Both the position numbers and the translations under genes were made by a program. Source: Lachnospiraceae bacterium AB2028 (GTDB lineage Bacteria; Bacillota; Clostridia; Lachnospirales; Lachnospiraceae). Taken from it: a stretch of DNA of 64,000 nucleotides. The stretch covers positions 124,001 to 188,000 of the forward strand of contig JHYJ01000008.1 of NCBI GenBank assembly GCA_000621425.1, in the 5' to 3' direction. The notes beneath the pieces were generated by a model that saw only the letters and a program-made list of their open reading frames with translations, was not told the origin of the DNA and made no database searches. Below, piece after piece: positions 22,438 to 55,484 of this stretch (positions within the stretch are counted from its first letter, which is position 1; each line of letters starts with the position of its first letter).

Positions 22438-23481
22438 TCACTGCAGCTTTATCCTGTCGCTGATACCCACGTTCTCATCAAGAACAACAGCCTTATCCTC
22501 AGGCAGATTTGCATTCATATCAAGGTAACTGCCGGAATCCATAACCGAACTCTCTCCCAAAACATCTATATGCAGAACCGTCCTGGCAGGGACAAACTGG
22601 TTAGCTAAGAAAAGCAACTGCTGGTACATGGTTTCCGACAAGCGTTTTCTCACTAAAACATCTACATCAAAGGGACCTCTTTCCGCATTTCCATAAGGCA
22701 GACCTTCTACAATATCATCCGTAAAGTTTATATTTTGGTTTTCGATTATCCTGACATCTTCACCTAAGATTATCTGAAATACTCTTTCAAGCGCATAACG
22801 TGTCCCCTTGTAGCCTGTCAGAGTATACAGCTCTTTTACAAATGTCCTGAGAGTCTCTTCAGGAAGAAATTTACTGCTGATTTCTATTCCCATCCACGAA
22901 GCATATACAGGCAGCAGTTCAACCGGGCAGGTATCAAGATCCAGTATCTTATCAAGCTCTTCTATTTCATCCTGAAACTCCCCATGAACAGTCGAAAAAA
23001 TCGACATATACCTATGTATGAAGGAATTCCTATCCCTATAAATTTCAGGGAGTTCTTCCATAAAGGTATCGCCATGCTGGTATACCTTCATATTCTCCAA
23101 TATGCAGCTACCGGTTTCTTCGATTGTTATCGCAAGATACAGATACCTTCCTTCCAGCGAATAAAGCAACACATCCTTCATTCCCTTGGTGCACTGTATG
23201 CTGTCACGCCTAAAGAACTCTATATTTGAAACATCGTCATCAGGAAGCTTATCGTTAACAGCAAAAGCAAAAACCGTGATCAGCATGTTTGAATCCATCT
23301 GTGCCTTAATAGCCAAACGTCCCCATTCTGAATCTTTTTTCCCGCTATCTATAGGTTTAAAGATAACAATATTTCTATACACCGACTCATCAGCAACTAA
23401 TGAGTCACCCTGTACGGTAAACCCTTCCAGAATAGCATCCTTTATTCGATTTTTCTTAATGGAATAAGTCTTTCCAGCCAT
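22438..23481 (-). CDS. CIS baseplate protein, phage tail protein I (P2 gpI)-like
   Basis: A 347-residue protein. The N-terminal 125 residues are a beta-rich domain of unknown role. The rest has the phage P2 gpI pattern: EELPEIYRDRNSFIHRYMSI, then TCPVELLPVYASWMGIEI, then LRTFVKELYTLTGYKGTRYA. It continues with a helical segment and a short C-terminal beta part (VPARTVLHIDV). In Afp/PVC and tailed phages, related proteins cap the wedge and attach fibres. It is the last gene of the CIS operon and follows the Afp12-like gene by 14 bases. No fibre gene follows it. Confidence 0.85.
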   Translation of the reverse strand: MAGKTYSIKKNRIKDAILEGFTVQGDSLVADESVYRNIVIFKPIDSGKKDSEWGRLAIKAQMDSNMLITVFAFAVNDKLPDDDVSNIEFFRRDSIQCTKGMKDVLLYSLEGRYLYLAITIEETGSCILENMKVYQHGDTFMEELPEIYRDRNSFIHRYMSIFSTVHGEFQDEIEELDKILDLDTCPVELLPVYASWMGIEISSKFLPEETLRTFVKELYTLTGYKGTRYALERVFQIILGEDVRIIENQNINFTDDIVEGLPYGNAERGPFDVDVLVRKRLSETMYQQLLFLANQFVPARTVLHIDVLGESSVMDSGSYLDMNANLPEDKAVVLDENVGISDRIKLQ

Positions 23482-23495
23482 TTTTAGCCTCCCTA

Positions 23496-25586
23496 TCAGT
23501 CAAAAGTGACAGCATTTACGTATAGTCTGCCGGGATAAAGCAATACATTTTTCTTCGGAACCAGCTCAGACTCCGAAACTTTTGCTGAACCGGCTCTCTG
23601 AACTGTCATGGAAATATCTGAAACATACTCAACACATTCCAGTGATTCCACATTTCTTATAACAGTTTCGTACTCCAGAGGATCACCAAAATTACTGTCA
23701 CCATCCACATAACGAATACTGTCACGCAACACTTCTTCTATGCTTTCCTTGTAATTATCGAAATAAGGCTTAACATATACATTTATGCGTATATCCACAC
23801 CTACATACTCTGGATCAAGAATCTCAAATTTGGTGGTAAGTATACGCCTTTTCTCAAGATATTCGGATATCAGTTTCTTGTATAACGAAGAAAGCTTTGG
23901 GCACTGTGCTCCGGTTCCGGGCATTACAGCTAAATAAACCGTATTATCTGCCGGTTCAGGCCATGCCCTAACCTTCCCTATGCAAAGCCCCGGGGTTTCC
24001 CTGACTATACGCTCATAGTCTGCTCCTGTTACCGCGGTGTTTGGATTATCCATATCCAATATCAGACGCTTTCTGACATCCTCAAATGACTCCCTGAACG
24101 CACCGCCTGTACCTGCAGAACAGTTCCTAAACTTTAGTCCCGGCAGAGCAGGAGACGTAAACTCACAACCTGAACGGATATTACCTGCAGAACCCCTTGT
24201 TACTGAAACACAGCCCATGAAAAGCTCCGCCCCGATGAAATCACCGGCATCCTCTATCACTATTCTGCCAGTTTTTTCAAGCAGATGATAATACAATCCA
24301 TTTTCAACAGCCTTGTCCGGTCTTACGAAATCATACAGGTATTCACCATTCTCGTCTTCCCTTCTGGCAATCAAAGTAAAGCTGTCCTTAACTACATTTT
24401 TCATCGGAAGTCTTATAGTCTCATTATCATAGCCATAAACCGTTCCAACGCGGTAATGTTTCATTACATCCTCTGAATAACTGATTATCCTTATAGGTTC
24501 TTTATAGTCACCCGGTGCATAGCCAAACTTTTCTTTACTAAAAGACACCTTATAGCTTACGCCATCATCACTGTCGATATCACAATATCTTCCAGTGTCC
24601 TCGCTGCCATTCGATATCTGATAGCGCCTATAGGAAGACCCTTTTTCCTCTTTTCCGAATATCAGGAAATATGGTTCCTTCGAAAGAACTGATTTAAATC
24701 TGAATTCTTTTTTTGATTGTATAATAAGCGATGCCCGGGTATCCCTCTGCCATGCTTCAAAAAGAAATCCGTCTACCTGATAAAACTCCGGCGTCACATC
24801 ATAATCAGCCCTTTTTACTCTCACCCTGAGACAGAATCCGCTTTCCTCAACCTTTTCAAAAAGTGCAGGACTTCCCTCAGGCATGCGGATCTTTACTTCA
24901 CCGCTTCCCATGAAACCGGCGGTATAGTCATGTACCTTTATCGGCAGAAAACCTGCTGCAGTATATATTTCCCATTCAAGGGATGCAAAAACATCATTTG
25001 CCCGATCAGTAAAAGGTGTACGTCCTTCAACATCACGCATAGTGAAATAGAAAATACATTCATTTCCTGCAGCTGGCAGACCATCGCAGATAAAATAGAG
25101 AGCTGCGCCTTCACTTACCTCGGAACCAAGAGCCTGTATGGGAACAACCGCATCTGCCTGCGTAAGGGTAGGCAAGAGCTTAAAATCTTCCTCGTTATCT
25201 GAAAAATAAACGGCATTCAGATGGCTTAAGCCTATATCCAGCTCCTTGCGGGTCTCAAAGCACATATCGCCTATCATAAATTTCTGAGAATCATCAATAT
25301 GCACTGAACGTCCTACACTATCTGTTGTCAGCAGTATACGCGCACATTTTCCTTTTCTGGGCATAAAGCCGAAAAGTTTCATAAGTGCCAGCCTCTGCTT
25401 ATTAGTAACCGCAGGAATTGTAGCTCCCTGTATGGCTACTTCATTTAAGAGTTCCTCCAATATGGTTACACCCGGATCAGAAGGATTGTAATTTGTCCAC
25501 TCCTTTGAATACATGGGAAGCCTTATAAGGGCATCCACGTACCTCGCCGTTAATTCTCTGTTTTTTTCATTTCTGATCTCAAGCAA
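23496..25586 (-). CDS. CIS baseplate wedge protein, Afp12-like (gpJ family)
   Basis: A 696-residue wedge component. The N-terminus carries the conserved YNPSDPGVTILEELLNE of Afp12-type baseplate assembly proteins, followed by the LMKLFGFMPRKG segment. The C-terminal half shows the gpJ-like pattern with DYERIVRETPGLCIGKVRAWP and the ILDPEYVGVDIRINVYVKP stretch that forms the inner wedge ring. The start is a TTG (25586) with GGGGAGG eight bases before it. It overlaps the end of the Afp11-like gene by 8 bases; a longer frame to 25610 has no binding site. It would form the wedge together with the larger protein upstream. Confidence 0.87.
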   Translation of the reverse strand: MLEIRNEKNRELTARYVDALIRLPMYSKEWTNYNPSDPGVTILEELLNEVAIQGATIPAVTNKQRLALMKLFGFMPRKGKCARILLTTDSVGRSVHIDDSQKFMIGDMCFETRKELDIGLSHLNAVYFSDNEEDFKLLPTLTQADAVVPIQALGSEVSEGAALYFICDGLPAAGNECIFYFTMRDVEGRTPFTDRANDVFASLEWEIYTAAGFLPIKVHDYTAGFMGSGEVKIRMPEGSPALFEKVEESGFCLRVRVKRADYDVTPEFYQVDGFLFEAWQRDTRASLIIQSKKEFRFKSVLSKEPYFLIFGKEEKGSSYRRYQISNGSEDTGRYCDIDSDDGVSYKVSFSKEKFGYAPGDYKEPIRIISYSEDVMKHYRVGTVYGYDNETIRLPMKNVVKDSFTLIARREDENGEYLYDFVRPDKAVENGLYYHLLEKTGRIVIEDAGDFIGAELFMGCVSVTRGSAGNIRSGCEFTSPALPGLKFRNCSAGTGGAFRESFEDVRKRLILDMDNPNTAVTGADYERIVRETPGLCIGKVRAWPEPADNTVYLAVMPGTGAQCPKLSSLYKKLISEYLEKRRILTTKFEILDPEYVGVDIRINVYVKPYFDNYKESIEEVLRDSIRYVDGDSNFGDPLEYETVIRNVESLECVEYVSDISMTVQRAGSAKVSESELVPKKNVLLYPGRLYVNAVTFD

Positions 25587-28500
25587 GGTTATCGCCCTCC
25601 CCGCCTTCAAAATTTACGTATATATGATGTTTCGCATTTCTTACACACATATCCGGTCTTATAGCTAAACTATCAAGATCCGTCTCGTGATCTCCGGTTT
25701 CATCAGTATAGGTAGCGGAAACCGTCATCTTTTTAAGTGATGCCATTCCTCTTACCGAATTTACCTTCATCATTATCTGTGAACGTTTCGGTATAACACC
25801 TATCCTCCAGCCGTCTCCCTTTCCACCGCTTACCGGATCAATATAATCCTCAAGCTCTTCGGCAATATGTTCCTGCAGTTCAAAACAGTCTTCAAGATCA
25901 TTCACATCAAGCCATGCGCTGACACTCAGGCTGACAAATATTGGCTCTGAAATATGGATATTGGATGCAGCAACCGTAAGCTCGCATTTTTCTAAAAGGT
26001 AATTCTTAAGCTTTGCAGAAAGCATATGGAAGGAAAACGCACCATCGTTATAATCCTTCATAAGAAGAAGTATAAGCACATCATCCTCTTTGGAAAGAAC
26101 ATCTGCCTTATCTATTCCTTCTGAATATCCTTTAACCAATCTCAAGTAATCTATCTTGCTTATAAGCCGTCTTCTTGAGCTGATAATGTCTGCGCCTCTG
26201 GCAAGCGCCTGTGGAATAGTTTCCATAGCAGATCCGCCATAGGACTTCACCGGATTGTCAACCAAATCTAAGAACATAGCGTTTCCGCTCTTTCCCGTAA
26301 TTGAATGTTCCGGAAGATTACCCCTGTCGCCGTCACTCCTGTATGTCTTTACTTTGAATGCAACATCATTGGTAACGGTAGGAATATCCTGATTCATTCC
26401 GTCACCGAATACCACCTCATTATTCAGGCGGTCAAGACAGTATATCCTACGTCTCTTATCAAACAGGAAATTCTCTGCCTCCTCCCATTTAACATAGAAG
26501 GCTGCTAAATTACCAAGCACATCATATTCTGCCCTTGCAATTTCGGGACTATGCTCTAATATATACTCTCTTTCTTCAGCTGTAATGGCACCGATCTCAT
26601 TTACCCAGAGATCAACTTTTAAAAGCTTATCCTTACCTAAAGCAAACCTCATCCCTGGAAGGGATTCATCCATATAGAAATCTTCTTCTATACCGGTGCT
26701 TATATTGGTAACAGTCATTCCGTTCATAAAAATACCGTTTACCACCGGTAGAAAACTCTTTCTGCTCTCAAGGACTCTGTGCTTTTGTGTAGCAACTATC
26801 CTTATCCAGTATCTTTCTCTGTCCTCAATTCTGCTCTTTATAAAATCCGAAGGCGGATCGAACATTATGATGCCGGATTTTGAAAAACCTTCTGTCAGAT
26901 CCAACACCCTTATTCTGCTGAAACCCCTTGTGGACCTATATTCAAAACGAAGTCCCAGAGTCTCATGGTACACACTGTCCTTGAGCATAAAAAGTATGCT
27001 TGCCGGACCTGCACCAATAGGCTTGTCAAAACCAAGATAAAGTGCATCATCCATATACTGTGAAGGTGCAAAAAGAGCTACACCTTCACTTGTTTTCTCC
27101 AGCTCCTGAACAGATTTTTTCTTTGTCCCCGATATGACTGAAACATTATTGCAGGGCATAAATCTGCCTTCGTAGCTATAAGATATCATCATATTCTTTA
27201 TACGGGGATAATGATGCACCGCCGGACGCATATAACAATTGTCCGCTCTCACACATCTCATACGTATCATACGACCTTCAGAGCTGCCGGCCTGTATTGC
27301 CTGCCACTCATCAGGGCAGATAAAGGACAAACTCATGTGTCCGGCCTCTCCACCTGCTAAATCGTAAGCGTAAAACCTGTCGCACTCAAGTTTCTTCCAT
27401 CCCATTCCGTTAAAATACTCAAGCACTATTTCGTTAACATATACATCTGCAAATTCCAGCCTGTTAACAAGCTTGGGCTTTCTTTTGATTATCTTCAGTT
27501 CACTGTCAATCTGCATCTGTGACACATCGATACGGTTTTCTTCATAGCTTATATCAGCCGAAATGGTAACCCTGGAACCGGCCTTTGCAAAATACGTATC
27601 AGATGCTATGTAACATTCCTTAGATGGAATAATTTCTTTATCAAAGGGCAGGAAATCATCCTTATCAAACTCAAAATCACTGTCACATACAGCATCAGGT
27701 ACAATTGGCTCGCCCTCTGAAGAAAAGCCTATTGACTTTGTAAACATTATCTCCTTTATAGGATCCGCTGCCTCGATAGCGATGACAGAATATTCCTCGC
27801 CATTGCTGCTGTACTTATCACACTCGCCCTTGAAACCGACATTGACAACTTCCGGATCACCAGTAGCCTCTACGCTGTCAGCAGGAACAAATGCACCATC
27901 ATCAAATCTGGATACGATAAACTCCCCATCCGTTATTCCTTGTACGATTCTTTCACCGCCTTCAAACTTAAGGCTCACCACACCATCAGTCTGGTCAAAA
28001 GCATTTTTATGCATGACAACAAAAGCATTCCTGCTTACACTGTCTTTTCCATCAAACATCTTAAAAGGTTTAAAGCCATTACCCTCTTCCTCGGAAGACC
28101 GATCATCGTCAACTGAAGGTTCCAATACTTCTTCCTCGGCATCTTCTCCGAACACGGCAGTCCCCATCTTTAAAAGTTCCGGCTTTTCAAATTTTCCAAG
28201 AACAGGGTATACATTTCCGTCCTCTTTATCCGTCAGGAATATATCCTTTACAGCAGCGGAAGTAACACATAAACTCCTGTCGGTTTCAAAAAGAACCGGC
28301 TCCGAATCGTCACCTTCGGTCACATCAGCAGAAAGAACAGTTCCCTTTGCCACAGGCACGCCCTCTCCATCTGCTGCCGCAGACTTCATGGTAACAACGC
28401 TCACTGCAGGTTTTACGCTCTTTAATGTAAGATCTAAAAGATTTATAAACTCCCCATGAAAACGGTCCATTGTTCCGTTCAAAAGCTTTATGTTCTCACA

Positions 28501-28656
28501 TACATTATCCGCATACACGTGCGCAATAACCGAACCTACATCAGGATTTGATACTGACTTATCAAGTATCCACTCCGGTGTATAGCTTACCCGCAGCTCA
28601 TCAATCCGATCAAGGATATCATTTTTTGTTCTTCCGTCTATTCTGGGATTATTCAT
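25579..28656 (-). CDS. CIS baseplate wedge protein, Afp11-like
   Basis: A 1025-residue protein, the largest of the cluster. The N-terminus, RIDGRTKNDILDRIDELRVS then YTPEW, matches Afp11-like baseplate proteins. The C-terminal third has the gpJ-like arrangement: a phage-type NNEVVFGDGMNQDIPT loop, a LRLVKGYSEGIDKADVL segment and a VSLSVSAWLDVND strand set. A large central beta-rich insertion fills residues 200-600. The start at 28656 is preferred because GGAGG lies six bases before it; a longer frame begins at 28713. The ATG overlaps the gp25 gene's end by 8 bases. It pairs with the Afp12-like protein to make the wedge. Confidence 0.87.
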   Translation of the reverse strand: MNNPRIDGRTKNDILDRIDELRVSYTPEWILDKSVSNPDVGSVIAHVYADNVCENIKLLNGTMDRFHGEFINLLDLTLKSVKPAVSVVTMKSAAADGEGVPVAKGTVLSADVTEGDDSEPVLFETDRSLCVTSAAVKDIFLTDKEDGNVYPVLGKFEKPELLKMGTAVFGEDAEEEVLEPSVDDDRSSEEEGNGFKPFKMFDGKDSVSRNAFVVMHKNAFDQTDGVVSLKFEGGERIVQGITDGEFIVSRFDDGAFVPADSVEATGDPEVVNVGFKGECDKYSSNGEEYSVIAIEAADPIKEIMFTKSIGFSSEGEPIVPDAVCDSDFEFDKDDFLPFDKEIIPSKECYIASDTYFAKAGSRVTISADISYEENRIDVSQMQIDSELKIIKRKPKLVNRLEFADVYVNEIVLEYFNGMGWKKLECDRFYAYDLAGGEAGHMSLSFICPDEWQAIQAGSSEGRMIRMRCVRADNCYMRPAVHHYPRIKNMMISYSYEGRFMPCNNVSVISGTKKKSVQELEKTSEGVALFAPSQYMDDALYLGFDKPIGAGPASILFMLKDSVYHETLGLRFEYRSTRGFSRIRVLDLTEGFSKSGIIMFDPPSDFIKSRIEDRERYWIRIVATQKHRVLESRKSFLPVVNGIFMNGMTVTNISTGIEEDFYMDESLPGMRFALGKDKLLKVDLWVNEIGAITAEEREYILEHSPEIARAEYDVLGNLAAFYVKWEEAENFLFDKRRRIYCLDRLNNEVVFGDGMNQDIPTVTNDVAFKVKTYRSDGDRGNLPEHSITGKSGNAMFLDLVDNPVKSYGGSAMETIPQALARGADIISSRRRLISKIDYLRLVKGYSEGIDKADVLSKEDDVLILLLMKDYNDGAFSFHMLSAKLKNYLLEKCELTVAASNIHISEPIFVSLSVSAWLDVNDLEDCFELQEHIAEELEDYIDPVSGGKGDGWRIGVIPKRSQIMMKVNSVRGMASLKKMTVSATYTDETGDHETDLDSLAIRPDMCVRNAKHHIYVNFEGGEGDNLA

Positions 28657-29119
28657 TATCATCCTCCGGCTCATATTCAATACCAAAGTCATCAGCCTCT
28701 TCAGGCACATCATTCCTATCCGTATTCAGGTAGAACGGGAATACAAGATTATCCTTGGTATTTGTTTCCGTAACGACATAATCGATACTTATTATCAAAC
28801 GCCCCTCTAACGACTGATATTCCGTCGAAATTTCCACATTGGATATGCGAGGTTCCTGACTCATGATCTGCCTTCTTAAGTCATCCTCCATAATGTTTAT
28901 GCTTGTCACATTAACATCCATAAAGACATAATTCATTATATTGCTGCCAAAATCCGGCCGTGCTATCCGCTCCATCTGCTGAGTCATAAGTATGATATAT
29001 ATGGACTCGCGGACACTATCCTCATATGAAGAAAGCCTGAAACGTCCTGTTGTAGGATCTATGCTAACAGGATATGCTGTTCCGGTTCCAAGAAAACTCT
29101 TGTCTTTTTTTTCTATCAT
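28649..29119 (-). CDS. CIS baseplate protein, gp25-like (Afp9)
   Basis: A 156-residue protein of the gp25 family, which nucleates sheath assembly at the baseplate. The family pattern is clear: a glycine-rich start (FLGTGTAYPVSID), SVRESIYIILMTQQMERIARPDFGS (core helix and LxTxxGE-like RP-GS turn), and then MSQEPRISNVEIS with the diagnostic EPR triplet. The acidic tail after residue 140 is longer than in T4 gp25. It lies between the spike protein gene and the wedge gene, as in other CIS loci. Confidence 0.9.
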   Translation of the reverse strand: MIEKKDKSFLGTGTAYPVSIDPTTGRFRLSSYEDSVRESIYIILMTQQMERIARPDFGSNIMNYVFMDVNVTSINIMEDDLRRQIMSQEPRISNVEISTEYQSLEGRLIISIDYVVTETNTKDNLVFPFYLNTDRNDVPEEADDFGIEYEPEDDNE

Positions 29120-29142
29120 TTTTATAAACCTCTTTACACTGC

Positions 29143-29982
29143 TTACTTATTCTTTATCATGGAGCCTGTGACTGTGGTGGAAGATGCACCATCACCCACT
29201 GTAGTGCTTGCAGAACCTGATCCTTTAAAGGTTCTTCCCGATGCAGAGAATTCTCCACTGGTCTTAAGCTCTACCTTCGCACCGGTTCCTGACGAATCAA
29301 CTATGAACTTGGTACATTTAAGATTAACCGTACCGCTGCTGTCGTTCATGGTAAGCTCTATGCTGTTTCCTACCTTTATGGTAAGTTTCTTCTCTGTCTG
29401 AATTGCTATATTTCCGTTATCGTCCGCTGTCTTTATTACAATTGAATTCTTTTTGTCCTTATCCGCAATGGTAATCAATCCCTTATCATTATCAAGCTCA
29501 ACAATATGGGCCTTTGCGGCTGTCTCTATTTTGATCTTGTCCTTAGTACCGTCTTCAGTCTCATTGTCATCCGTAAAGGTGATGGTAGATCCGTGCTTTG
29601 TGGTAATTGCCTTGGTTTTGTTGTTCTCATCAACAACATCCTTTAAAAACTGGTCCTTATCGTACTTGGGAACACATCCTATTATGTAGGGCCGCTCGAT
29701 ATTTCCCTGTTCAAAGGCAAGGAGTACCTGATCTCCCACTTCAGGAAGGAAATAATGTCCCCACTTATTACCGGATGACGGCTGTGCCACTCTTACCCAC
29801 ATAAGCATCTGATCCTGCTCCTGGTCTTTGGTAGTCACATTGACACAAACCCTGCCCGGCATCTTTGCATCATACTTATTCTGCACGGTGCCCAAAAGCA
29901 CGCCGTATATACGGTTATCGCCGGTCTCTGTCTTCTGGGTCTCAGCCGCAGATATATCGCTTATGATGTCAAATAATTCCAT
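29143..29982 (-). CDS. CIS spike protein, gpV/gp5 OB-fold and beta-helix (VgrG C-terminal half)
   Basis: A 279-residue protein. An OB-fold (about residues 22-105) shows the phage gpV/VgrG pattern with VLLGTVQNKYDAKMPGRVCV, then MLMWVRVAQPSSGN and FLPEVGDQVLLAFEQGNIERPYIIG. After a linker, residues 120-279 are a run of short beta strands rich in Thr, Lys, Asp and Gly, with repeats such as TAAKAHIVELDNDKGLITIADK, which would form the trimeric spike. It is half of a split VgrG; the other half is the gpD-like gene upstream, 76 bases away. The tip is probably supplied by the DUF4280 protein. Confidence 0.9.
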   Translation of the reverse strand: MELFDIISDISAAETQKTETGDNRIYGVLLGTVQNKYDAKMPGRVCVNVTTKDQEQDQMLMWVRVAQPSSGNKWGHYFLPEVGDQVLLAFEQGNIERPYIIGCVPKYDKDQFLKDVVDENNKTKAITTKHGSTITFTDDNETEDGTKDKIKIETAAKAHIVELDNDKGLITIADKDKKNSIVIKTADDNGNIAIQTEKKLTIKVGNSIELTMNDSSGTVNLKCTKFIVDSSGTGAKVELKTSGEFSASGRTFKGSGSASTTVGDGASSTTVTGSMIKNK

Positions 29983-30058: not shown

Positions 30059-31180
30059 TCACTTTATTGTTGCAGTTCTGCCTTCCAGCACTGTCCTGAA
30101 CTTTCCTGTTTCACCCATCTGGGTATGCCTTACCCTGGTCAGATAAAACTGGTTGGACACCGTTGTTCCTAACTCTGAAAGTTCTATAAAGCAGCCCGGT
30201 ATAATTTCCGGAAGACCGACCATTTCAGCCTTTAATGAACCAAATCTATATGCTACCCTTTCCGCAAGATATTCGGACCTATACTGTGCAACAGTTTTGT
30301 CTTCAGCCGTAGGATCTATATAAACCTTCTTCTGACTGCCGATTATCTTCCTAGCCTTTGACTTCTGGGATATCTTGTTGTTCATCGTAGACGTCGAAGA
30401 AAACTGCTTAGCCTCTCCGGGGTTCTCATTCCTTACTTCTACCGAACCCACCAGACCGCTTATGTCATATGTCACATCAAAGCTCTGCAATAAAGTCTCC
30501 GGAGTAATTTTGATAAGAGGATTCTTATTCTCCTTGGCCTTCCGGAAATAAACCGTACCGCCTATGGTATAAAACTCATAATTAAATTTCTTAGCAGCCT
30601 TAACCACAAATTCATAATCGCTTTCACAATTCATCTCCAATGTATAGGCTGATGGATTCTCATCCGTATTCTCGGGAGTTTCGGTAATCTTTGCTGCGCC
30701 GTTAAGATAACTTTCATAGAAAGGCTGCTCAAGTATCTTCTTAACAGCTAACGAATACTTCATATCTCCCGTAAACTGCTTGAAAGAGCAGTTAGCCATC
30801 ATAGCCCCCTTGACATCCATTGCAGTGACAGTGATACACGGGGCATCCATCTTATGGTAGTTAAAATTTACCCTGGTTATGATTCCATAAAATACTTCCC
30901 TTGCAGATTTGCCGTATCCCATGAATATCTGTACAACTGCGCCCAAAGTTATGTATTTCTGCACATCCTCGGTAATGAATCCCGTAAGATCCCTGTCAAA
31001 GGTATTGTATAGAGAAAAGGATGCAACAGATGCTTCAAATCCGCTGGTCAGTTCTACCTGTATATCAGATATTGCAAAGCCAAGCTTATCATCCGCTATA
31101 CTTTTGCCGTCCACCCTGATGACTGACACCGGAGTACTAAAATTTCCATATGTCTTTTTTAATGAATCAAAATCCAACAT
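30059..31180 (-). CDS. CIS hub protein, gpD/gp27-like (VgrG N-terminal half)
   Basis: A 373-residue protein of the phage late-control gpD/gp27 family, which makes the trimeric hub on which the tube sits. Typical features are the beta-barrel start with SVIRVDGKSI, then VQIFMGYGKSAREVFYGIIT, CITVTAMDVKGAMM, the cysteine stretch MNCESDYEFVVKAAKKFNYEFY and the final PGCFIELSEL with YLTRVRH. Afp8-type proteins have hub and spike in one chain; here they are two chains. It follows the second Afp7-like gene by 11 bases. Confidence 0.9.
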   Translation of the reverse strand: MLDFDSLKKTYGNFSTPVSVIRVDGKSIADDKLGFAISDIQVELTSGFEASVASFSLYNTFDRDLTGFITEDVQKYITLGAVVQIFMGYGKSAREVFYGIITRVNFNYHKMDAPCITVTAMDVKGAMMANCSFKQFTGDMKYSLAVKKILEQPFYESYLNGAAKITETPENTDENPSAYTLEMNCESDYEFVVKAAKKFNYEFYTIGGTVYFRKAKENKNPLIKITPETLLQSFDVTYDISGLVGSVEVRNENPGEAKQFSSTSTMNNKISQKSKARKIIGSQKKVYIDPTAEDKTVAQYRSEYLAERVAYRFGSLKAEMVGLPEIIPGCFIELSELGTTVSNQFYLTRVRHTQMGETGKFRTVLEGRTATIK

Positions 31181-36971: not shown

Positions 36972-37181
36972 TTATATGCGTCTGTCAGGCTTCATATCTA
37001 GTATGCTCTTTTCCTTCTTCTTTTTAGAGGGATTAAGGCTCTTATTGATCTCCGAAATCTCCGAGCACCATCTGCGCCTGCTCACATGATCCAGGGACAG
37101 GACCTCATCTTCACTCCAGTGGAAGTAGTAGGAGATAAAGGACATTTCCCTGTACAGCTCATCCTTCGGATAAAGCCTCAA
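36972..37181 (-). CDS. DUF6760-like small CIS protein
   Basis: A 69-residue protein whose pattern (YPKDELYREMSFISYYFHWS, then EDEVLSLDHVSRRRWCSEI) matches the DUF6760 proteins that accompany eCIS tail genes: a small helical protein with a conserved His-Trp pair and an ERRRW-like motif. It ends in a lysine-rich tail. The frame starts with a TTG that overlaps the TGA of the preceding gene (TTGA). The GGGGAGGG directly before it has no spacing, so it is translated either by re-initiation or by a -1 frameshift that extends the preceding protein. Confidence 0.7.
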   Translation of the reverse strand: MRLYPKDELYREMSFISYYFHWSEDEVLSLDHVSRRRWCSEISEINKSLNPSKKKKEKSILDMKPDRRI

Positions 37182-46482: not shown

Positions 46483-46492
46483 ATGGACTTTT

Positions 46493-47704: not shown

Positions 47705-47732
47705 TTATCCTCCGAAAGTGGCAATCCTGCAA

Positions 47733-50135
47733 TCAGATATCATCGTTGTAATCAAGTACCATTCCTTCTTCGCCCATATAACCGCCGCTAAGGCACTTTT
47801 CACATTTGAAGAGATACCATTTTGCCAGCCTGTCTGCAGGACAGTTCTTCAGCAGATCTGAAAATCTGTTTCTTGCCAGATAGAAATCCGACTTATAAAA
47901 CAGGTCTATGGAATCCTCAAACTTCTTTCTGTATTCCATCTTGAGCTGCCTTTCCCTTGCATCACAGGCATCAAGAACTTCATACATATCCTCCCTGCTT
48001 CCATCCGGAAGGATTATGTATCCGATATACCTTACTTCAGCCTGTCCTGCATCGCGCTCCATTATCTTCTTGGTGATAACCATATTTATGCCCATATTGC
48101 TGAACCATTCACCAAAGTGCTCATATATTCTTACCTTAGGAGACGATATAAATGTCATAGCCTGGGTACTGTTACCTGCAATTCCTACAGTAAACTCTGA
48201 GTAGTACACCACAAGTCCCATGCTGCTGTTCATTTCTTTTCTTACGGAATTGGTGTAGTATCCTACACCTAACTCAAGCATACGCTTATTGCTCTTGTCA
48301 AAGAACATTTCAACCTTGGACAGCATGCTGTCATTGGATACGACCGTACCTTCCATATCTGCTGTTTCCATATAATCCATAAGGAATTTCATATTATCAA
48401 GGACTTCCCTGTTTTCCGGTGTCGAAGATGTTGAAAATACAACCATAGAGCCCTTTGCAACTGCCGTATCACCTTCATGTACCTCCGTAATGGAGTCCTT
48501 ATGCATCAGCTGTTCAATGTTCTTCGGTGAAAAACGATAATATGCCGAGTACATCTGGTACTTTGCATAGTTTATTCTGTTGATCCGTCTGACAAGTTCC
48601 CTGATAGCCGTATAGATCAGTTTCTGGTCATCGCTGACCTCCTTGGAAACCTCAGGTTCCTTTCCATCCTCAACAGCTTCCATCAACGCTCTCTTTATAA
48701 GGGCAATATCCCTGTATACTCTTACATCTACCGTGAAATAAACGATAAGGAAAATAATCGCCATCAGGCCCACACAGTTATTGATAAGCAGGGCTCCTAC
48801 CATCACATCACTGTCTGTCTCAGGGCTTATATACATACCGATAAGGCAATATGAAGAATTTCCGGCTGACATCATAGGTGAACATACAATATAGTACCTT
48901 GTACCATGAATGGTATTGACATCTACTTCCGAATCCTTGTCTATAGCACATTTTTCTACCATATGTCTATAGGAATCGCCCATAACCTCGCCGATATTCT
49001 GACGGTTCATAAGCTCAGTATCGAGTATGATATTTCCATTCTGTGCATTAACGATCAAGAATCTCTTGCAGTCTACCGTACCATATCCGCCAAGCTCATC
49101 CGTCACTGCCGAGTAAAGTGAATAATATCCGCTGCTCTCATAAAAATCCGCATCTCCGACACCGTAGTTCTCAAGCATACCTATGTCGTCTACGCTGTAA
49201 ACATTCTCATCAGTTGCCAGCACCGTTGCAGAGTCCTGGGTTATTTTTTCCATAACAGCATTAAGCACAAAAGAAACATTAACAGCTATGAAAATTACCC
49301 AAACCGTTCCGGAAAGGATCAGGCCCAGTACACGGCTCTTCTTTTTCACAACAAGCTGTACCATGATGCCCGAAAGAATCACAAGGCAGGTAAAAGCAAA
49401 CACGCCTGCAGTACGGGCACCACCGGTCTTCATTTCAATACCTATATTTGAATTTCTTAAATTGTAGATTTTTTTGATCTCATCAGGAACTGCAAATACT
49501 CCTGCCGGAGCATCTGAATCCATTCTTGTAAAAAGTTGTCCGTCCTGATAGCATGCCGAAGTAAATAAACGCGCCCCTTCACTTTCCTTTGAATAGATCA
49601 TTGACAATGATGATGAAGATTCGTTTTCCTCCTTATCTTCAAAAATATCTTTCCCCAGGAGGTAAACATTCGCCTGAGTACGCTCCTCATCCATCACGGT
49701 AACGTACAGATCACCATCCTGCACATCAATACTGCAAGCCCATACATCCTTGTCAATTTCAAATAACGCTGATGCCACAATAGGTTTCAAGCCCAGATCA
49801 TACTTGAGAATCTGGAAATATGATTTTCTGTCCTGTGTGGTCTTTGTGTACAGAACATAAATATTTTCCTCGTCTGCTGCTATGCCTTCTATCGAAGCCG
49901 TCTCATTTTTCTTACTATCCAAACGTGTGCCATACTTTATTTTCTTATTCGGCTTTATACCGTATATGCGCACATTATTTCCACAGTCGGAAGAATAATA
50001 GTATATGCCATTCTGTTCCACATACTTAGTGGTCTCGTTGAATTCTGATTTATCAGTATTCAGATCTATAAAAATACCAAAAAACATCAATGGGAAAAGA
50101 AGAACAATTATTATTCCTATAATCTTTTTAGCCAT
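47733..50135 (-). CDS. Membrane pseudo-adenylate-cyclase with propeller and CACHE domains
   Basis: An 800-residue membrane protein. There is an N-terminal helix (4-22), then a propeller-like ectodomain (about 40-235) with repeat strands such as ENIYVLYTKTT and GDLYVTVMDEER. Two helices follow (243-263, 269-293), then a CACHE-like ectodomain (about 300-440), a fourth helix (446-468), a linker, and a class III cyclase-like domain (533-722) ending in a helical tail. The cyclase pattern is visible as YYRFSPKNIEQLMHKDSITE, then FTVGIAGNSTQAMTFIS and YIGYIILPDGSREDMYEV. The two catalytic Asp are missing (VVFSTSST and VSNDSML where FSDIRGFT and GDxxxA stand in active enzymes). It is likely a sensor without cyclase activity. 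Confidence 0.75.
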   Translation of the reverse strand: MAKKIIGIIIVLLFPLMFFGIFIDLNTDKSEFNETTKYVEQNGIYYYSSDCGNNVRIYGIKPNKKIKYGTRLDSKKNETASIEGIAADEENIYVLYTKTTQDRKSYFQILKYDLGLKPIVASALFEIDKDVWACSIDVQDGDLYVTVMDEERTQANVYLLGKDIFEDKEENESSSSLSMIYSKESEGARLFTSACYQDGQLFTRMDSDAPAGVFAVPDEIKKIYNLRNSNIGIEMKTGGARTAGVFAFTCLVILSGIMVQLVVKKKSRVLGLILSGTVWVIFIAVNVSFVLNAVMEKITQDSATVLATDENVYSVDDIGMLENYGVGDADFYESSGYYSLYSAVTDELGGYGTVDCKRFLIVNAQNGNIILDTELMNRQNIGEVMGDSYRHMVEKCAIDKDSEVDVNTIHGTRYYIVCSPMMSAGNSSYCLIGMYISPETDSDVMVGALLINNCVGLMAIIFLIVYFTVDVRVYRDIALIKRALMEAVEDGKEPEVSKEVSDDQKLIYTAIRELVRRINRINYAKYQMYSAYYRFSPKNIEQLMHKDSITEVHEGDTAVAKGSMVVFSTSSTPENREVLDNMKFLMDYMETADMEGTVVSNDSMLSKVEMFFDKSNKRMLELGVGYYTNSVRKEMNSSMGLVVYYSEFTVGIAGNSTQAMTFISSPKVRIYEHFGEWFSNMGINMVITKKIMERDAGQAEVRYIGYIILPDGSREDMYEVLDACDARERQLKMEYRKKFEDSIDLFYKSDFYLARNRFSDLLKNCPADRLAKWYLFKCEKCLSGGYMGEEGMVLDYNDDI

Positions 50136-50165
50136 AACATTAAACCTCAGATAAACTATATTTCA

Positions 50166-51014
50166 TCATTCCAGCGACTGCGTACCTATCACTTTAAAAT
50201 TATTATAAAAAATTCTTAACCAGGGCTGATCTCCAAAAAACAGATTTGAGAGCAGCATGACTAACGCAACAATAGCAACAATAGTACACAATACAAACAG
50301 TATCCTAAAGAGCAGATCCGAATGCCTTGAGAAAAACTTCTTTATCCGTTTGAATATGCCTATCTTTCCTTCCGGAGCAGAGGCGATCCTGACATCACGG
50401 TACAGCTCAATAAACTGTGCATAACTCTTATTGGCACTCTTTTTCTCCAGTATCTGACAGGATATTGCTTTCTCAAAGGATGCTTTTTTAAGCAGTTCCG
50501 TAAGAATCTCTGCACAACATACAACGCACTCCCTTTCACCAATCTTTTCATCCATTTCGGAAAGGTCCACGCTATAGCTCAAATAAATTGAATCATCCCT
50601 GGAAATATTTACCAACCTGTGTTTCAAAATCAGATAAAGCAGCGGATAAGGAATCCCTGATGTAATACAGGCCAGAATTACATTGCAACATATGGTCTCA
50701 CACTGATTGATGGACATTCCTTCGCCCACAAAAAACTTATCCAGAGCCCTCTCCTGTCTATACGGAAATACGAAAAAATGATCCTTTCCGGTAGAAAAGT
50801 TTTCTATCATTACAGCGTTGCCGCCATCCGGAGTTGAATTCGCATCAAGCATTACCAGCAGCCTTTTTATCAGCTCATGAGAACGCACCAGGAAAACAGT
50901 ATACTTGCTCCTGTTTTCCCCCGACAGGTCATCACATATGAGCACATCAAAATCTTCCGTAGAAAGGACGGTACTCAGGACCTCATATTTTGCATTTTCG
51001 GATTCATATATCAT
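50166..51014 (-). CDS. C-terminally anchored protein of the CIS operon, unknown
   Basis: A 282-residue protein with no recognised domain in its first 225 residues (mixed strands and helices, with two conserved-looking Cys pairs ICCN and VCCAE). A membrane helix lies near the C-terminus (about 238-260, LLFRILFVLCTIVAIVALVML), with a short outside end. A basic patch IFKRIKKFFSRHSD directly precedes the helix. This tail-anchor-like layout would place the soluble part in the cytoplasm. It overlaps the next gene upstream by one base (TAATG). It could dock the particle or the ATPase to the membrane, but that is conjecture. Confidence 0.55.
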   Translation of the reverse strand: MIYESENAKYEVLSTVLSTEDFDVLICDDLSGENRSKYTVFLVRSHELIKRLLVMLDANSTPDGGNAVMIENFSTGKDHFFVFPYRQERALDKFFVGEGMSINQCETICCNVILACITSGIPYPLLYLILKHRLVNISRDDSIYLSYSVDLSEMDEKIGERECVVCCAEILTELLKKASFEKAISCQILEKKSANKSYAQFIELYRDVRIASAPEGKIGIFKRIKKFFSRHSDLLFRILFVLCTIVAIVALVMLLSNLFFGDQPWLRIFYNNFKVIGTQSLE

Positions 51015-52813
51015 TATGCTTCTGTCTCATCCCCTGTTATCTTCTTTACGATTGCATAAGCATAAGTGCATACTACAGGCATATCGGTGCAGTAGATCCT
51101 TATCTCATATACACCTTCCTTAGCAGGAGCCACATAGATACCGTCAGCAGATATCTCACCGCTTCCGGGTGCAGTAAGCTCATAAGCTATGCTGCTCTGG
51201 GGCATATTGTGGAATCTGACACCGAAATAGTGGCTTTCCTTGAGACCAAGCACAACTGTAGGTGTCTCAGCCGAAATGCTCTTATCATAATAATCACCGG
51301 GCATATCCAGATCATTCCCTGCAGGGAATTTGATTGCAACCCAACGGTATGTAAGAACAAGGTAATTTACGCTGCGATTCATCTTTGCAGCAGCCACAAA
51401 GCTTCCCTTGTCATTAAGCACCTTTACAGCCACCTCGGCATCAACCTTCTCTTCACCGGTCTCAAAAAGTGCCGGATTACCATATACCGTATTCTTGGCA
51501 TCCATCCCCAATGATTCATCATGGTCTATATGCTCATATCCCAGCTGTACATATACATTACCCTTACCAAGACCATGAGTGATCTCGCCTGAGAATTTCA
51601 CATCACCGGGCTGAACATTTCTGCCAAGGGGTATCTCCAGTATGCCGGTAGCCACCTCAGGGCCTGACTTTCTTTCCTTGGTTTCACTCCGTACATCTGC
51701 AGGACCCTGCTGTACCTCAATCCTTTCCATGATGTCCACATCCTTCTCATAGTATGAGATGAAGTGATTCCTCATGTACTCCTGGCCGGGTGCCGTGATA
51801 TATTTCTTTACGCCATCCTCTATGATGCGGTCAATGACGTATGCATTATCGGTACGAAGCAGCTTTATCTCTGCCAGCCTGATGTAATCATTCCTGCTGC
51901 CTATAGCCATCATCTCAAGATTAAGCATGCTGATACGGTTGGTAACCAGCTCCAAAGGTGTTGCATCCGACATTATGACTTTGATATGGAAACTATTTGC
52001 CGTAGGCACTGCCGTATCGTTTTCGTACGCATGTGCTGAACCGCTTCTGAGAATAACAGCTGTATCCTCCACATCAGCCGGCATAACCTTCATCCAGTAC
52101 TCTTTTGACCAGGTCTCACCCTTCTTAAGCTTAAGACCTGAACACTCAACCGCAATGATATTCTCTCCGGTGCTGCTCATGAAAAGGGGCGTCTCTAAAA
52201 GTCCGTCCATTGTCAGCTCAACATCTGCATCCGTAAGCTTTGTCACTACCAGCTCAAGCCTTACATTCCTGTCCTTGCTCACATAACCGGGGAGCATTAC
52301 CTCTACCAGGAAGTTGTCAGACTTCATGATCCGCTCCCTTACAAGGAATTCCGTCTCAGCCACATAATCAGGCTTAAGGTCATCCTTATCGGTAAGGAAC
52401 AGCTCGTATCCTTCGGAAATACGGTTATATTCGTATTCCTTGCTTGCATTTCCGGTGGAATTTACGGAATAAACCGAATGAACTTCCTTCTCATTATATT
52501 TGAGGCAAAGCACAGCCCTGTCGGTCTTCAGCGAATCGAAACCATCAATTGCTGACAGTTTCTTAACCACTGAATTGTCAACTATAATCTCCCTTCCTTC
52601 GCCGTCTATGGCAACACCGCTCTCTATCAGTATTGAAAGGTCATCCAAACTGAATGTTCCCAGTCCGCAGACGATACCGCTTCCATACATAAGTACATTG
52701 GAAAACCTCATACGATTAACAAAGTAATCCTGCTCTGCCTGAAAATCCGCACTTGTAAGCATCTTTCCCGGGTAGTAACGATTTTTTTCAAAAGGATACA
52801 TTTGATTTGCCAT
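51014..52813 (-). CDS. eCIS-associated protein with a conserved YxxGKxLTxxDFxxEQ N-terminus
   Basis: A 599-residue soluble protein. Its N-terminus, RYYPGKMLTSADFQAEQDYF then MYGSGIVCGLGTFS, matches a motif found at the start of many large proteins that accompany eCIS genes in bacteria. The rest is beta-rich, with several Ig- or jelly-roll-like blocks (for instance VMLPGYVSKDRNVRLELVV, then VTYRWVAIKFPAG-like LTYRWVAIKFPAG near 490) and a C-terminal Ig-like unit (GVYEIRIYCTD). It could be a structural or target-binding part. Function is unknown. It lies directly after the AAA+ ATPase gene. Confidence 0.65.
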   Translation of the reverse strand: MANQMYPFEKNRYYPGKMLTSADFQAEQDYFVNRMRFSNVLMYGSGIVCGLGTFSLDDLSILIESGVAIDGEGREIIVDNSVVKKLSAIDGFDSLKTDRAVLCLKYNEKEVHSVYSVNSTGNASKEYEYNRISEGYELFLTDKDDLKPDYVAETEFLVRERIMKSDNFLVEVMLPGYVSKDRNVRLELVVTKLTDADVELTMDGLLETPLFMSSTGENIIAVECSGLKLKKGETWSKEYWMKVMPADVEDTAVILRSGSAHAYENDTAVPTANSFHIKVIMSDATPLELVTNRISMLNLEMMAIGSRNDYIRLAEIKLLRTDNAYVIDRIIEDGVKKYITAPGQEYMRNHFISYYEKDVDIMERIEVQQGPADVRSETKERKSGPEVATGILEIPLGRNVQPGDVKFSGEITHGLGKGNVYVQLGYEHIDHDESLGMDAKNTVYGNPALFETGEEKVDAEVAVKVLNDKGSFVAAAKMNRSVNYLVLTYRWVAIKFPAGNDLDMPGDYYDKSISAETPTVVLGLKESHYFGVRFHNMPQSSIAYELTAPGSGEISADGIYVAPAKEGVYEIRIYCTDMPVVCTYAYAIVKKITGDETEA

Positions 52814-52871
52814 AGTGTTCTTCCTTCCTCATAAATTATATTTTTATGCTGCCTTTACTTTTATATTTATT

Positions 52872-55235
52872 TTACAGACCGATCTGATCCGCATAGGGTT
52901 CAAAATCCGATCTGGTAAATACCTTACCAACCTTAACAAACTCGTACTTTATTGCGCTAAGATAATGTCTCATGCATACCTTCCCATGTGCTGTCTCATC
53001 TGCTGCCGCAAGGAAAGCCGCATTCAGGATGCAGTTCTTGATATTACCACCGGCAAACTCGTACTTCTCTGCTAAGTACCTGATATCCACATCCTCATCC
53101 AAAGGAGTGGTCTTGGGTATCGTAGTCCTCCAGAGCATCTCGCGGGTATCCGCATTGGGGAACTGGAATTCTACGATGTACTTCATCCTTCGGAAGAAAG
53201 CCGGGTCGATGTTGTGCTTGTAGTTGGTTGCCAGTACGCACACACCGTCGTATGCTTCCATTTCCTGAAGGAGCAACGCTGTCTTGTTGTTGGCGGATGC
53301 CTGGTTGGAACCGCCGTCGTCGGAACGCTTCGCAAATATGGTGTCGCACTCATCAAAGAAAAGAACGACGTTACACTTCTTTGCTTCACGGAATATCATG
53401 GAAAGTGATTTTTCCGTTTCACCGACGTACTTATCTACAACCTTCGAAATATCTACCCTGTAAAGCTCCAGGTTCAGCTCATGGGCCAGAACCTGCGCCA
53501 TCATGGACTTACCTGTACCGGGAGCACCGAAGAGCAGAACCGTAAGGCCTCGTCCGTAAGGATACTTCTTTGTGTAATCCCACTGCTCATATACCTGCTT
53601 CTTGAAGTTCATCTGCTCTATGGCATGGGTGATGGTTTCCCGCTGGCTGGGGTTCATAACGATATCGTCGAAACCGAATTTTGCTTCCACTCGGGTAGCC
53701 TTCTGGGAAAGCTCGGATGACATCTGTCTGTTGCATCCCTTGAAGAGATTCTTTCTGGATATAACCGTTTCCTTATCCATAAGGGAAAGGTTCCTTGCTT
53801 CCTTAAGGGCGTCCTTAACCTTGCCGGCTGTAAAGATGAACTTGGTTGACATTTCCAGCAGATCCACATCATCATCAAATGAATACTGCTTTGCAAAAAA
53901 TTCCCAGCATGCAAGTCGGTCGGTAGTGGTAGGTGCCGGAAGTTCGAATTCCGCAAAGGTCTCCTTCGTGATCTCTTTCATGGAGATGTTCAGCTTGGAC
54001 ATTGCGAAAACGGTGATGTTTTTCTCAGTAAGCTTTGAGAACGCAAGATCCATATAACCGAAGAACTTTTCCTTTTCCTCTTCCCTATATGAAAGATCTG
54101 TCAGACAGCAGCACGCATTGGTAAGGATACACTCTCTGGTTACAGCCCAAAGCGCCCTGTTAACAAACTGGAAATCATAATCGAAAAGTTTCTTACAGTT
54201 GATGGTGATGGCACGGAGATTATTCTTCTCGCAGAATTTCTTAACGAAGAACTTACGTCCGCTTCCCTCATCGCCATAGTAATAGAAGATCCTGGTGCCT
54301 TCCGCATAAGCTATCTCCATAGCCTCTAAGACGGTAGCATTTGCCATTATGGGATCAAGTTCTTCTCCCGGCTTTGTCAGGGTACTGAAGAACCTTGAAT
54401 AATCTTCATCAAGCTTGAATGGATCCCTACCGAAAAGGAAGTCGATGACCCTTTTATCCGGTGATACGGCGGTAGAGAAAGGCATGCTGTTTACCACATG
54501 CAGGTCAAGTATGGGCATAAGCTGTTCAAGGCAGGCACTCATTCCGCCGTAGGCGCCTGTCACCGAAAACTTGTCCCCGTAATAAAGTCTTGCTGCTGAT
54601 TCTATGGTCGGACAGGAAAGTCCGCCATTTTCATTGACGATCTGATATACGCCGGCATAGTCAGTCTGAGTACTGGACAGGATTCCGGCAGTAAAACAGA
54701 ATATGGTAAAAGGTTCAAAATCTAACTTCTTGCATAACTCATAAAGCGGAAGCTTTACCCCTTTTTCAATGGATGCCTCTGCCCTGCTGATGATGAATTC
54801 TAAGGTTTCCTCCGCCCCCATTACATCGGATCTTGTAGGGATTTCCTTTACTTCCTCTTCATCATCTATGGCTTCTGTCAGGCTGGAGAAGAGATCCAGA
54901 AGGTCATCGCTTATAGCCTCTGTAGGCTCCTTCTTCTCGGCCTTCTTCTTTTTCTTTCCGCCTTCTTCATCGCCATCCTCATCAGTATCCTCTTCTGCTT
55001 CGGCGGACGGATCACCCATGACGAACTTCTCAATCCGTTCACGGCAGACATCACTGGCCACTTCGATATCGGGATATAGAACATTCTTGTACTGGCCCTG
55101 TCCTGTTGAGAAGACAGCCTTCATCCTTTCCAGGTAAGCATCTATGCATGTATTTACGCAGTCGAACATATACTGCATAAATTCATTATAATCCGCAAAC
55201 GGCTTATTTTTTAGTTTATTGCTATATCTATCCAT
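52872..55235 (-). CDS. Tandem AAA+ ATPase of the CIS (Afp15-like)
   Basis: A 787-residue protein of the Afp15-type AAA+ family that is needed for CIS assembly. After a helical N-terminus with an acidic and lysine-rich linker (80-105), it has a degenerate first AAA module (P-loop-like GDEGSGRK at 321-328, no Walker B Glu). It then has a complete second AAA module with GAPGTGKS at 570-577, LFFDECDTIFAKR at 625-637, a sensor-1 Asn in VLATNYKHNIDP, and the arginine finger region PAFFRRMKYIVEF. A tandem layout with one dead module is typical of this group. The small gene at 55263 lies directly upstream. Confidence 0.92.
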   Translation of the reverse strand: MDRYSNKLKNKPFADYNEFMQYMFDCVNTCIDAYLERMKAVFSTGQGQYKNVLYPDIEVASDVCRERIEKFVMGDPSAEAEEDTDEDGDEEGGKKKKKAEKKEPTEAISDDLLDLFSSLTEAIDDEEEVKEIPTRSDVMGAEETLEFIISRAEASIEKGVKLPLYELCKKLDFEPFTIFCFTAGILSSTQTDYAGVYQIVNENGGLSCPTIESAARLYYGDKFSVTGAYGGMSACLEQLMPILDLHVVNSMPFSTAVSPDKRVIDFLFGRDPFKLDEDYSRFFSTLTKPGEELDPIMANATVLEAMEIAYAEGTRIFYYYGDEGSGRKFFVKKFCEKNNLRAITINCKKLFDYDFQFVNRALWAVTRECILTNACCCLTDLSYREEEKEKFFGYMDLAFSKLTEKNITVFAMSKLNISMKEITKETFAEFELPAPTTTDRLACWEFFAKQYSFDDDVDLLEMSTKFIFTAGKVKDALKEARNLSLMDKETVISRKNLFKGCNRQMSSELSQKATRVEAKFGFDDIVMNPSQRETITHAIEQMNFKKQVYEQWDYTKKYPYGRGLTVLLFGAPGTGKSMMAQVLAHELNLELYRVDISKVVDKYVGETEKSLSMIFREAKKCNVVLFFDECDTIFAKRSDDGGSNQASANNKTALLLQEMEAYDGVCVLATNYKHNIDPAFFRRMKYIVEFQFPNADTREMLWRTTIPKTTPLDEDVDIRYLAEKYEFAGGNIKNCILNAAFLAAADETAHGKVCMRHYLSAIKYEFVKVGKVFTRSDFEPYADQIGL

Positions 55236-55262
55236 TAACCCTCACCCTATCTGTTCCAGAAC

Positions 55263-55484
55263 TCAATCATCCGTCCTGACTGATTTAAAAATAGCCCCCC
55301 TGTCAAATACCGACGGCGCTGTGTTCAGCGATTTTGTATCCTTTTGTGTAAAGACATCATCAGTGTCATTGAAATATTTTCTGCGCTCAGCAGGCTTGTA
55401 CATAAGTGTCTCTTCATCTTCGTCAAACACTTTTGTCTGCTTTTGCCTTTGCTTATTCTGTTTTATAAGCTCGTCTGCAAGCAT
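55263..55484 (-). CDS. Small first gene of the CIS operon, unknown
   Basis: A 73-residue hydrophilic protein, MLADELIKQNKQRQKQTK, then a region rich in acidic residues, with no membrane segment and no known domain. GGGGTG lies nearby before the ATG. It is the first gene of the operon, with a promoter about 40 bases upstream, and ends 27 bases before the ATPase gene. Being small, charged and likely disordered, it may be a regulator, an assembly helper or an adaptor for the ATPase; nothing in the sequence decides between these. Confidence 0.55.
   Translation of the reverse strand: MLADELIKQNKQRQKQTKVFDEDEETLMYKPAERRKYFNDTDDVFTQKDTKSLNTAPSVFDRGAIFKSVRTDD

Follow-up and report, generated by a model that had tools for sequence, protein, structure and literature searches.

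Envelope-bound contractile weapons are found in diderm bacteria and, as recently recognised, in haloarchaea. The present analysis concerns a contractile injection system (CIS) encoded in Lachnospiraceae bacterium AB2028, in a 64,000-nucleotide window (contig JHYJ01000008.1, positions 124,001 to 188,000, forward strand) that is the whole stretch analysed and to which all coordinates refer; the conserved set of membrane and wall proteins encoded with this CIS suggests that the syringe remains in the envelope of its own cell and is triggered from there instead of being released. Among the closest described systems, the Anabaena CIS is anchored in the thylakoid membrane by Cis13, a tail-fibre-like trimer with its own transmembrane (TM) helix (passages of PMC8894136). 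Sections of PMC11566945 describe a type VI secretion system (T6SS) of Halogeometricum that operates from the cytoplasmic membrane in a cell lacking an outer membrane, with one six-TM-helix protein as its putative anchor; Cis13 is postulated there to help in the attachment, and the closest relatives of the haloarchaeal Cis11 are placed in Bacillota. In Streptomyces, a Gram-positive CIS depends for firing on CisA, a membrane adaptor whose extracytoplasmic domain may act as a sensor (excerpts of PMC12237407). For Bacillota, the relevant parts of PMC8213781 list toxins from extracellular CIS (eCIS) loci of Paenibacillus and Ruminiclostridium, and those of PMC12923769 report fibre domains in CISs. 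No paper on a CIS of Lachnospiraceae or Butyrivibrio was found in the open literature searched, including parts of PMC8213781, PMC12210884, PMC9230969 and PMC12923769, and none was found there on pseudokinase, pseudocyclase or partner-switch parts in a CIS. The core of the locus is of a known CIS kind, and for its envelope block no published description was found in the literature searched.

The operon comprised 25 open reading frames (ORFs), all on the minus strand between 22438 and 55484 and separated by gaps or overlaps of −65 to +104 bp, exactly where an earlier note on this DNA had placed them. The complete CIS announced in that note was borne out for most structural roles: the profile search of the operon proteins that it had proposed, run with Pfam and NCBIfam, returned CIS families for these. 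Tail_P2_I, Baseplate_J, GPW_gp25, Phage_base_V, YQBQ, CIS_tube (twice), DUF6760 and Phage_T4_gp19 reached the Pfam cut-off in the baseplate and tube part, the YQBQ match of the hub protein with 27.2 bits against a cut-off of 27, and Phage_sheath_1 and 1C, DUF4280, Pvc16_N (DUF4255), OEP, MORN and AAA did so in the remainder. Sheath, tube, gp25, wedge, spike, Pvc16/DUF4255 cap and AAA+ ATPase all lay in one locus, which is the core known under the names Afp/PVC eCIS; unlike in those systems, no receptor-binding fibre was recognised here, and a Cis13-type protein and the envelope block were present instead. The ATPase, described in the note as tandem, had one clear AAA domain (residues 566–691), and the tandem arrangement was not shown, because the second candidate region was at best weak (NCBIfam Hda-like, residues 299–357, E 7.7e-4). 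The absence of a recognised toxin from the operon was confirmed, although this says little, as effectors may be encoded at other places. TssJ, TssL and TssM likewise had no Pfam match among the 45 window proteins scanned (25 of the operon and 20 further ones; no genome-wide search was made). A likeness to the classical T6SS would consist in a contractile machine proposed to work from the envelope, whereas the CIS-type core, the lack of a TssJLM match in the window and the lack of Omp85 in the host genome set the two apart.

The earlier note had seen no fibre; a protein in the fibre slot, p599, does exist. Its residues 8–155 matched the NCBIfam family CIS13_fam (NF053767) at 99.7 bits, an assignment that covers the N-terminal part only and lies below the full-length model cut-off of 370 bits. 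No credible TM segment was found within p599 by a simple hydrophobicity test of 79 sequences, 21 of which passed, 20 at an N-terminal-core stretch containing two Asp and one at a probably wrong start. The p599 stop codon overlaps by one base the start of the next gene, p282. Among length-filtered p282 relatives, a C-terminal TM segment was predicted in 76 of 76 and the IGT tail was present in 73 of 76, and the positively charged flank of this segment, judged by inspection, suggests that the kinase-like part faces the cytoplasm. A 16-row alignment of close and distant p282 sequences matched Ser/Thr kinases of related genomes (90.9%, E 1e-6, 78 columns) and PAK kinases in PDB (2e-4), with cyclases at 0.2%. 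All 16 rows lacked the HRD Asp, and a Gly-rich loop (GxGxxG) was not seen; an Asp aligned with DFG in 10 of 16 rows, and the catalytic lysine could not be placed. The product of p282 may be a kinase-like protein without the HRD Asp and the Gly-rich loop, i.e., pseudokinase-like. Of the note's envelope-tied particle, it is the direction that gains support at the sequence level, because p599 has a Cis13-family N-terminus and its gene runs by one base into the start codon of p282. The Anabaena system similarly has a Cis13-family protein in the fibre slot and a membrane-tied CIS, the latter being a proposal in the present case; in contrast to its Cis13 with a TM helix, p599 has none and the gene of a putative TM pseudokinase follows, and no MORN, OEP or cyclase-like parts are met in the cited passages of PMC8894136.

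The p599 alignment was used to scan public genomes, giving at least 594 pattern matches and at least 562 confirmed relatives, the best 80 of which were kept; these loci are the closest relatives among them, the counts refer to loci with enough sequence downstream of p599, and genes cut by a locus end were scored as present. The 80 locus titles name Lachnospiraceae, Butyrivibrio, Eubacterium, Acetatifactor or unnamed Clostridia and bacteria, and 24 of them contain Rumen, Reticulum, Omasum or Abomasum. The p282 gene was present in 77/77 loci, p800 in 67/67, the MORN gene in 64/64, OEP712 in 64/64 and p878 in 57/59; all five followed in order in 57 of 59 loci, with L128 and L137 lacking p878 only. 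The five membrane or secreted proteins pointed out in the earlier note do form a conserved block, and the synteny comparison that it had suggested across Lachnospiraceae showed this block kept with the CIS in other genomes, the opposite of the outcome that it had named beforehand as counting against it.

A sheath match was found in 27 of 299 genomes of the same family. The p282 profile matched 45 of the 299, namely 23 of the 27 sheath-positive genomes (22 at E < 1e-30 and a partial match at 2e-11 in G242) and 22 sheath-negative ones; the latter matches were weak (7e-9 to 8e-4, about 60–140 residues, frames of 315–681 aa) and may represent ordinary kinases. Sheath-positive genomes without a p282 match were G006 and G233, both with short sheath contigs, G046 and G253. 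The OEP712 profile matched 22 genomes, 14 strongly, all of them sheath-positive, and 8 weakly over about 70–90 residues. On the linkage in the 80 loci and these genome-wide profiles, the possibility that the envelope genes are chance neighbours was rejected. The block was looser in a wider comparison within the family (25 locus sets from 24 genomes), where a second locus group had p599, p282 and the MORN gene, p800 elsewhere in several cases, and no detected OEP or p878 gene, G242 excepted. In the sheath tree (33 rows, 4 ungrouped), the 11 OEP-labelled rows formed one clade (1 change, 100/100). A single origin of the OEP gene is not claimed, because two genomes outside this label carry OEP matches: G242, labelled MORN_only, has an OEP protein of 1558 aa, and G532 has a weak match. 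In G242 (L226:6083 onward), this protein has an N-terminal OEP domain and occupies the usual place of OEP712 and p878. The sheath gene G046:C1:3754911-3756605 grouped with the OEP clade, and the surrounding 40 kb that were retrieved contained no other recognised CIS gene.

Among 398 genomes of the phylum, 18 matched p599: 9 over most of the protein (including the AB2028 genome and another genome of its family), 3 restricted to the N-terminus (E near 1e-32) and 6 weak. Flanks were compared for 10 genomes of other families. G691, G675, G532 and G669 kept p599, p282 and the MORN gene, with p800 in three of the four; the contig of G409 ended right after p599. Meanwhile, G706, G511 and G423 (L220–L225) had two neighbouring sheath genes, the N-terminus only of a Cis13-type p599 and no envelope block, and they stood apart on a long branch of the sheath tree.

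Comparison of the predicted p800 model with structures by VIA-align revealed the class III cyclase fold. The first metal-binding Asp was absent from 10 of 10 rows and the second from 9 of 10, so that, judged by its lost catalytic residues, the domain is probably dead. The Cache ectodomain of p800 was WalK-like and the other propeller-like. The OEP domain of OEP712 also matched TolC chains in PDB (from 0.005), and a hydrophobic N-terminus was found in 60 of 60 relatives; no Omp85 was detected in the host genome by a search that was positive in 7 of 14 control genomes, and an outer membrane was thus not indicated. Among length-filtered p878 relatives, 47 of 48 had a hydrophobic N-terminus, and a comparison of p878 with PDB gave nothing convincing (best 0.007). 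The MORN protein relatives had a TM segment in 63 of 64 cases.

The unit proved larger than the earlier note had drawn it: a STAS gene lies directly downstream of the operon and further signalling genes lie beyond. STAS followed the Afp12 gene in 7 of the 8 OEP-bearing relatives reaching that end, and the ISSAGLR motif, whose second Ser corresponds to the phosphorylation site of SpoIIAA, was present in 8 of 8 STAS rows, the window's own included. An FtsE-like ABC gene came after STAS in G041, G080, G129 and G277, and in G129 these two were followed by an RsbW-like HATPase, a 1007 aa MFS-type protein, a 225 aa ORF and SpoIIE. The CIS locus of G149 had STAS, HATPase and SpoIIE together, and in G104 SpoIIE was fused to HATPase. 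Homologues of the two-TM HATPase_c protein (307 aa) were found near the CIS in G041, G080, G277, G129 and G180, and one of the 225 aa SH3-domain protein in G277. Of the 27 sheath-positive genomes, 8 had a SpoIIE gene no more than 30 kb from the sheath, against 1.05 expected (probability 4e-6; the expectation was taken from gene number and rounded genome sizes, and the 30-kb limit was chosen after the positions had been seen); in G054 and G076, SpoIIE lay within 7 kb of p282, on contigs other than the sheath's. The window contained the genes of a partner-switch module by Pfam, namely STAS, a HATPase kinase candidate and a PP2C phosphatase, and these genes constitute a candidate phospho-switch. 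As a separate observation, the 1007 aa MFS-domain protein recurred near CIS loci of G174, G129, L113 and L126.

On the gene content, the linkage, the fold of p800, its lost catalytic residues and the predicted topology, a mechanism may be proposed in which docking, the scaffold, the sensed signal and firing through the envelope are what we infer. Assembly of the particle would take place in the cytoplasm, and the periphery of its baseplate would dock on the cytoplasmic membrane at a contact between p599, the Cis13-type connector, and p282, the putative membrane pseudokinase. The exported TolC-like OEP712, p878 and the MORN protein would surround the exit site with a scaffold that reaches from the membrane into the wall. 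Where present, p800 may use its WalK-like Cache and propeller-like domains to sense the wall or envelope and pass a conformational signal via the HAMP-like region to the dead cyclase dimer, and in part of the family STAS, HATPase and the SpoIIE phosphatase may add a phosphorylation (partner) switch. Together, p800 and this switch would license docking or firing, in a T6SS-like mode without TssJLM. We consider it reasonably probable that the locus encodes such a cell-anchored CIS of a monoderm bacterium, docked, scaffolded and gated by envelope proteins and firing through its own envelope. Such a CIS would resemble the Halogeometricum T6SS in acting from the cytoplasmic membrane and in the role proposed for Cis13, but the single putative anchor of the latter is to be set against five envelope proteins here. 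It may be suggested, more tentatively, that the locus represents a distinct class of cell-anchored contractile secretion machine, a monoderm counterpart of T6SS widespread in Lachnospiraceae and found also in other families of the phylum, which would fire via a TolC-like wall-spanning sleeve and be gated by a pseudokinase, a pseudocyclase and a phospho-switch.

Several observations weigh against the cell-anchored mechanism. The conserved linkage also fits a purely regulatory role. The kinase fold of p282 depends on the distant rows, because the 56-row alignment of close relatives gave weak or negative results (0.019 in PDB, 1.2% against kinases) and Pfam kinase had no match in the 16 members. 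One p800 row, L069, keeps the Asp at the second metal site, and p800 was not detected in 3 of the 10 OEP-bearing sets covering its place (G176, G104, G085). In other families, the p282 candidate of G669 is short and has no TM segment, and in G632 and G472 p599, the MORN gene and p800 were found with p282 undetected. STAS occurred in OEP-bearing sets and in none of the other locus sets compared, and 19 of the 27 sheath-positive genomes had no SpoIIE within 30 kb on the same contig, some contigs ending early.

The main rival is a conventional released eCIS whose envelope genes form a linked regulatory circuit controlling expression or release without touching the particle, which we consider unlikely. 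Much of the module does resemble signalling proteins (the HAMP-like region, cyclase-like and kinase-like domains, STAS, PP2C), whereas the overlap of the Cis13-type gene with the p282 start codon, the exported TolC-like and MORN proteins, which are unlikely regulators, and the three loci with two sheath genes and no module argue for more than regulation; moreover, Pfam recognised no holin, endolysin or transcription factor in the operon, several proteins of which have no family. An intracellular, stress-triggered CIS of the Streptomyces kind, which membrane adaptors would dock for a short time and which would fire into the producer's own membrane, killing or remodelling the producer, appears improbable. 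The precedent of CisA, an adaptor with an outward domain, and the suitability of a WalK-like sensor and a partner switch for stress sensing speak for it, but the exported set (OEP712, p878, MORN) exceeds the needs of a trigger and, by predicted topology, points outwards. By description, in the excerpts of PMC12237407, Streptomyces has one adaptor with a solute-binding-like domain, in place of a five-gene block and partner-switch genes. The reading as a common prophage tail or tailocin remnant that merely has unrelated genes beside it has a negligible probability and was rejected, in line with the earlier note: the sheath does have remote phage relatives (1937 records, every one <60% identical), but the record covering 97% of it is 26% identical, the host genome has one sheath locus and no Phage_portal match (the same search was positive in 4 of 14 control genomes), DUF4255, DUF4280, AAA+ and Cis13-family parts are present, and the gene linkage is kept across 80 loci. 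No capsid or terminase was found among the 45 window proteins scanned with Pfam (a genome-wide search was not made).

The features of the window are listed in Table 1. Same-place homologues of the repeat-rich second tube protein ranged from 143 to 615 aa in OEP-bearing loci, and the protein at the tape-measure position ranged from a 167 aa match (G085) to a 1500 aa ORF (G242). The HlyD-ABC-FtsX efflux-type genes directly upstream of the operon (55622–60907) were rejected as part of the system: of the 80 loci, the closely related L076 alone had HlyD/FtsX relatives (E < 1e-8), and the 25 other locus sets, some of which end before the region upstream of the ATPase gene, had none. A spore photoproduct lyase-like protein is encoded at 12474–13781 (Pfam 5e-15), and elsewhere in the same genome (G000:C10, ~30.8–66.2 kb) there is a cluster of several protein kinase domains with a weak SpoIIE-like match.

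Table 1. Features of the CIS operon and its downstream neighbours, with coordinates in the window
Feature	Coordinates	Strand	Evidence
HATPase_c_2 protein, 138 aa, RsbW/SpoIIAB-like, partner-switch kinase candidate	13868..14284	-	Pfam PF13581 3e-22
SpoIIE-type PP2C phosphatase, 541 aa, HAMP-like stretch	14338..15963	-	PF07228 1.4e-42; HAMP 0.004, below cut-off
Membrane protein, 1007 aa, long N-terminal part and MFS domain	16547..19570	-	Pfam MFS_1 2e-31
Two-TM HATPase_c protein, 307 aa	19731..20654	+	Pfam PF02518 5e-19
SH3-domain protein, 225 aa, N-terminal hydrophobic segment	20682..21359	+	SH3_3 5e-5, below cut-off
FtsE-like ABC ATPase, 219 aa	21366..22025	-	Pfam ABC_tran 3e-37
STAS anti-anti-sigma-like protein, 100 aa, ISSAGLR motif	22022..22324	-	Pfam STAS 5e-17
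Afp12/Tail_P2_I baseplate protein	22438..23481	-	Pfam 7e-12
Baseplate_J wedge protein	23496..25610	-	Pfam 7e-11; TIGR02243 1e-24
Large baseplate wedge protein, 1044 aa	25579..28713	-	TIGR02243 2e-9; no Pfam match
gp25 sheath initiator/wedge	28649..29119	-	Pfam 9e-19
Spike (Phage_base_V)	29143..29982	-	Pfam 7e-21
Hub	30059..31180	-	Pfam YQBQ 3e-6; NCBIfam VgrG_rel 5e-8, below cut-off
CIS_tube (PF19266) protein 1	31192..32043	-	Pfam 2e-16
CIS_tube (PF19266) protein 2	32055..32957	-	Pfam 2e-10
705 aa protein, tape-measure position	32970..35087	-	Place kept in relatives; no Pfam/NCBIfam family
gp19-like second tube protein (by inspection), repeat-rich C-terminus	35103..36950	-	No Pfam match over cut-off
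DUF6760 protein	36972..37181	-	Pfam 6e-19
120 aa Cys-motif protein, perhaps chaperone-like (guess)	37178..37540	-	Place conserved in relatives
Inner tube (T4 gp19)	37645..38157	-	Pfam 5e-29
Contractile sheath	38249..39952	-	Pfam 2e-19 and 1e-15
DUF4280 PAAR-like tip	39977..40348	-	Pfam 6e-29
p256, 256 aa, adjoins tip gene	40365..41135	-	Conserved with CIS; no Pfam/NCBIfam family
Pvc16/DUF4255 cap	41186..41779	-	Pfam 5e-28
p878, predicted exported, coiled-coil-rich (by inspection)	41783..44419	-	57/59 loci
OEP712, predicted exported, TolC-like	44416..46554	-	Pfam OEP 2e-10; 64/64 loci
MORN-repeat protein, one N-terminal TM	46493..47704	-	Pfam MORN 2e-12; 64/64 loci
p800, four-TM receptor: beta-propeller-like and Cache ectodomains, HAMP-like region, degenerate class III cyclase domain	47733..50135	-	
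p282, pseudokinase-like domain, C-terminal TM, IGT tail	50166..51014	-	77/77 loci
p599, fibre-slot connector, Cis13-family N-terminus, Ig-like C-terminus (latter by inspection)	51014..52813	-	CIS13_fam 2e-28
AAA+ ATPase	52872..55235	-	Pfam AAA 2e-28
p73, small protein before ATPase gene	55263..55484	-	Homologues likewise placed in G277, G080, G041; no Pfam family

If the cell-anchored reading is true, rumen and gut monoderms would possess a previously unrecognised means of acting on their neighbours, on hosts or on themselves, and the family would illustrate the docking and gating of a contractile machine that has no TssJLM. Through the dead cyclase and the kinase-like parts, the trigger of CIS firing becomes open to test by gene removal in cultured rumen strains.

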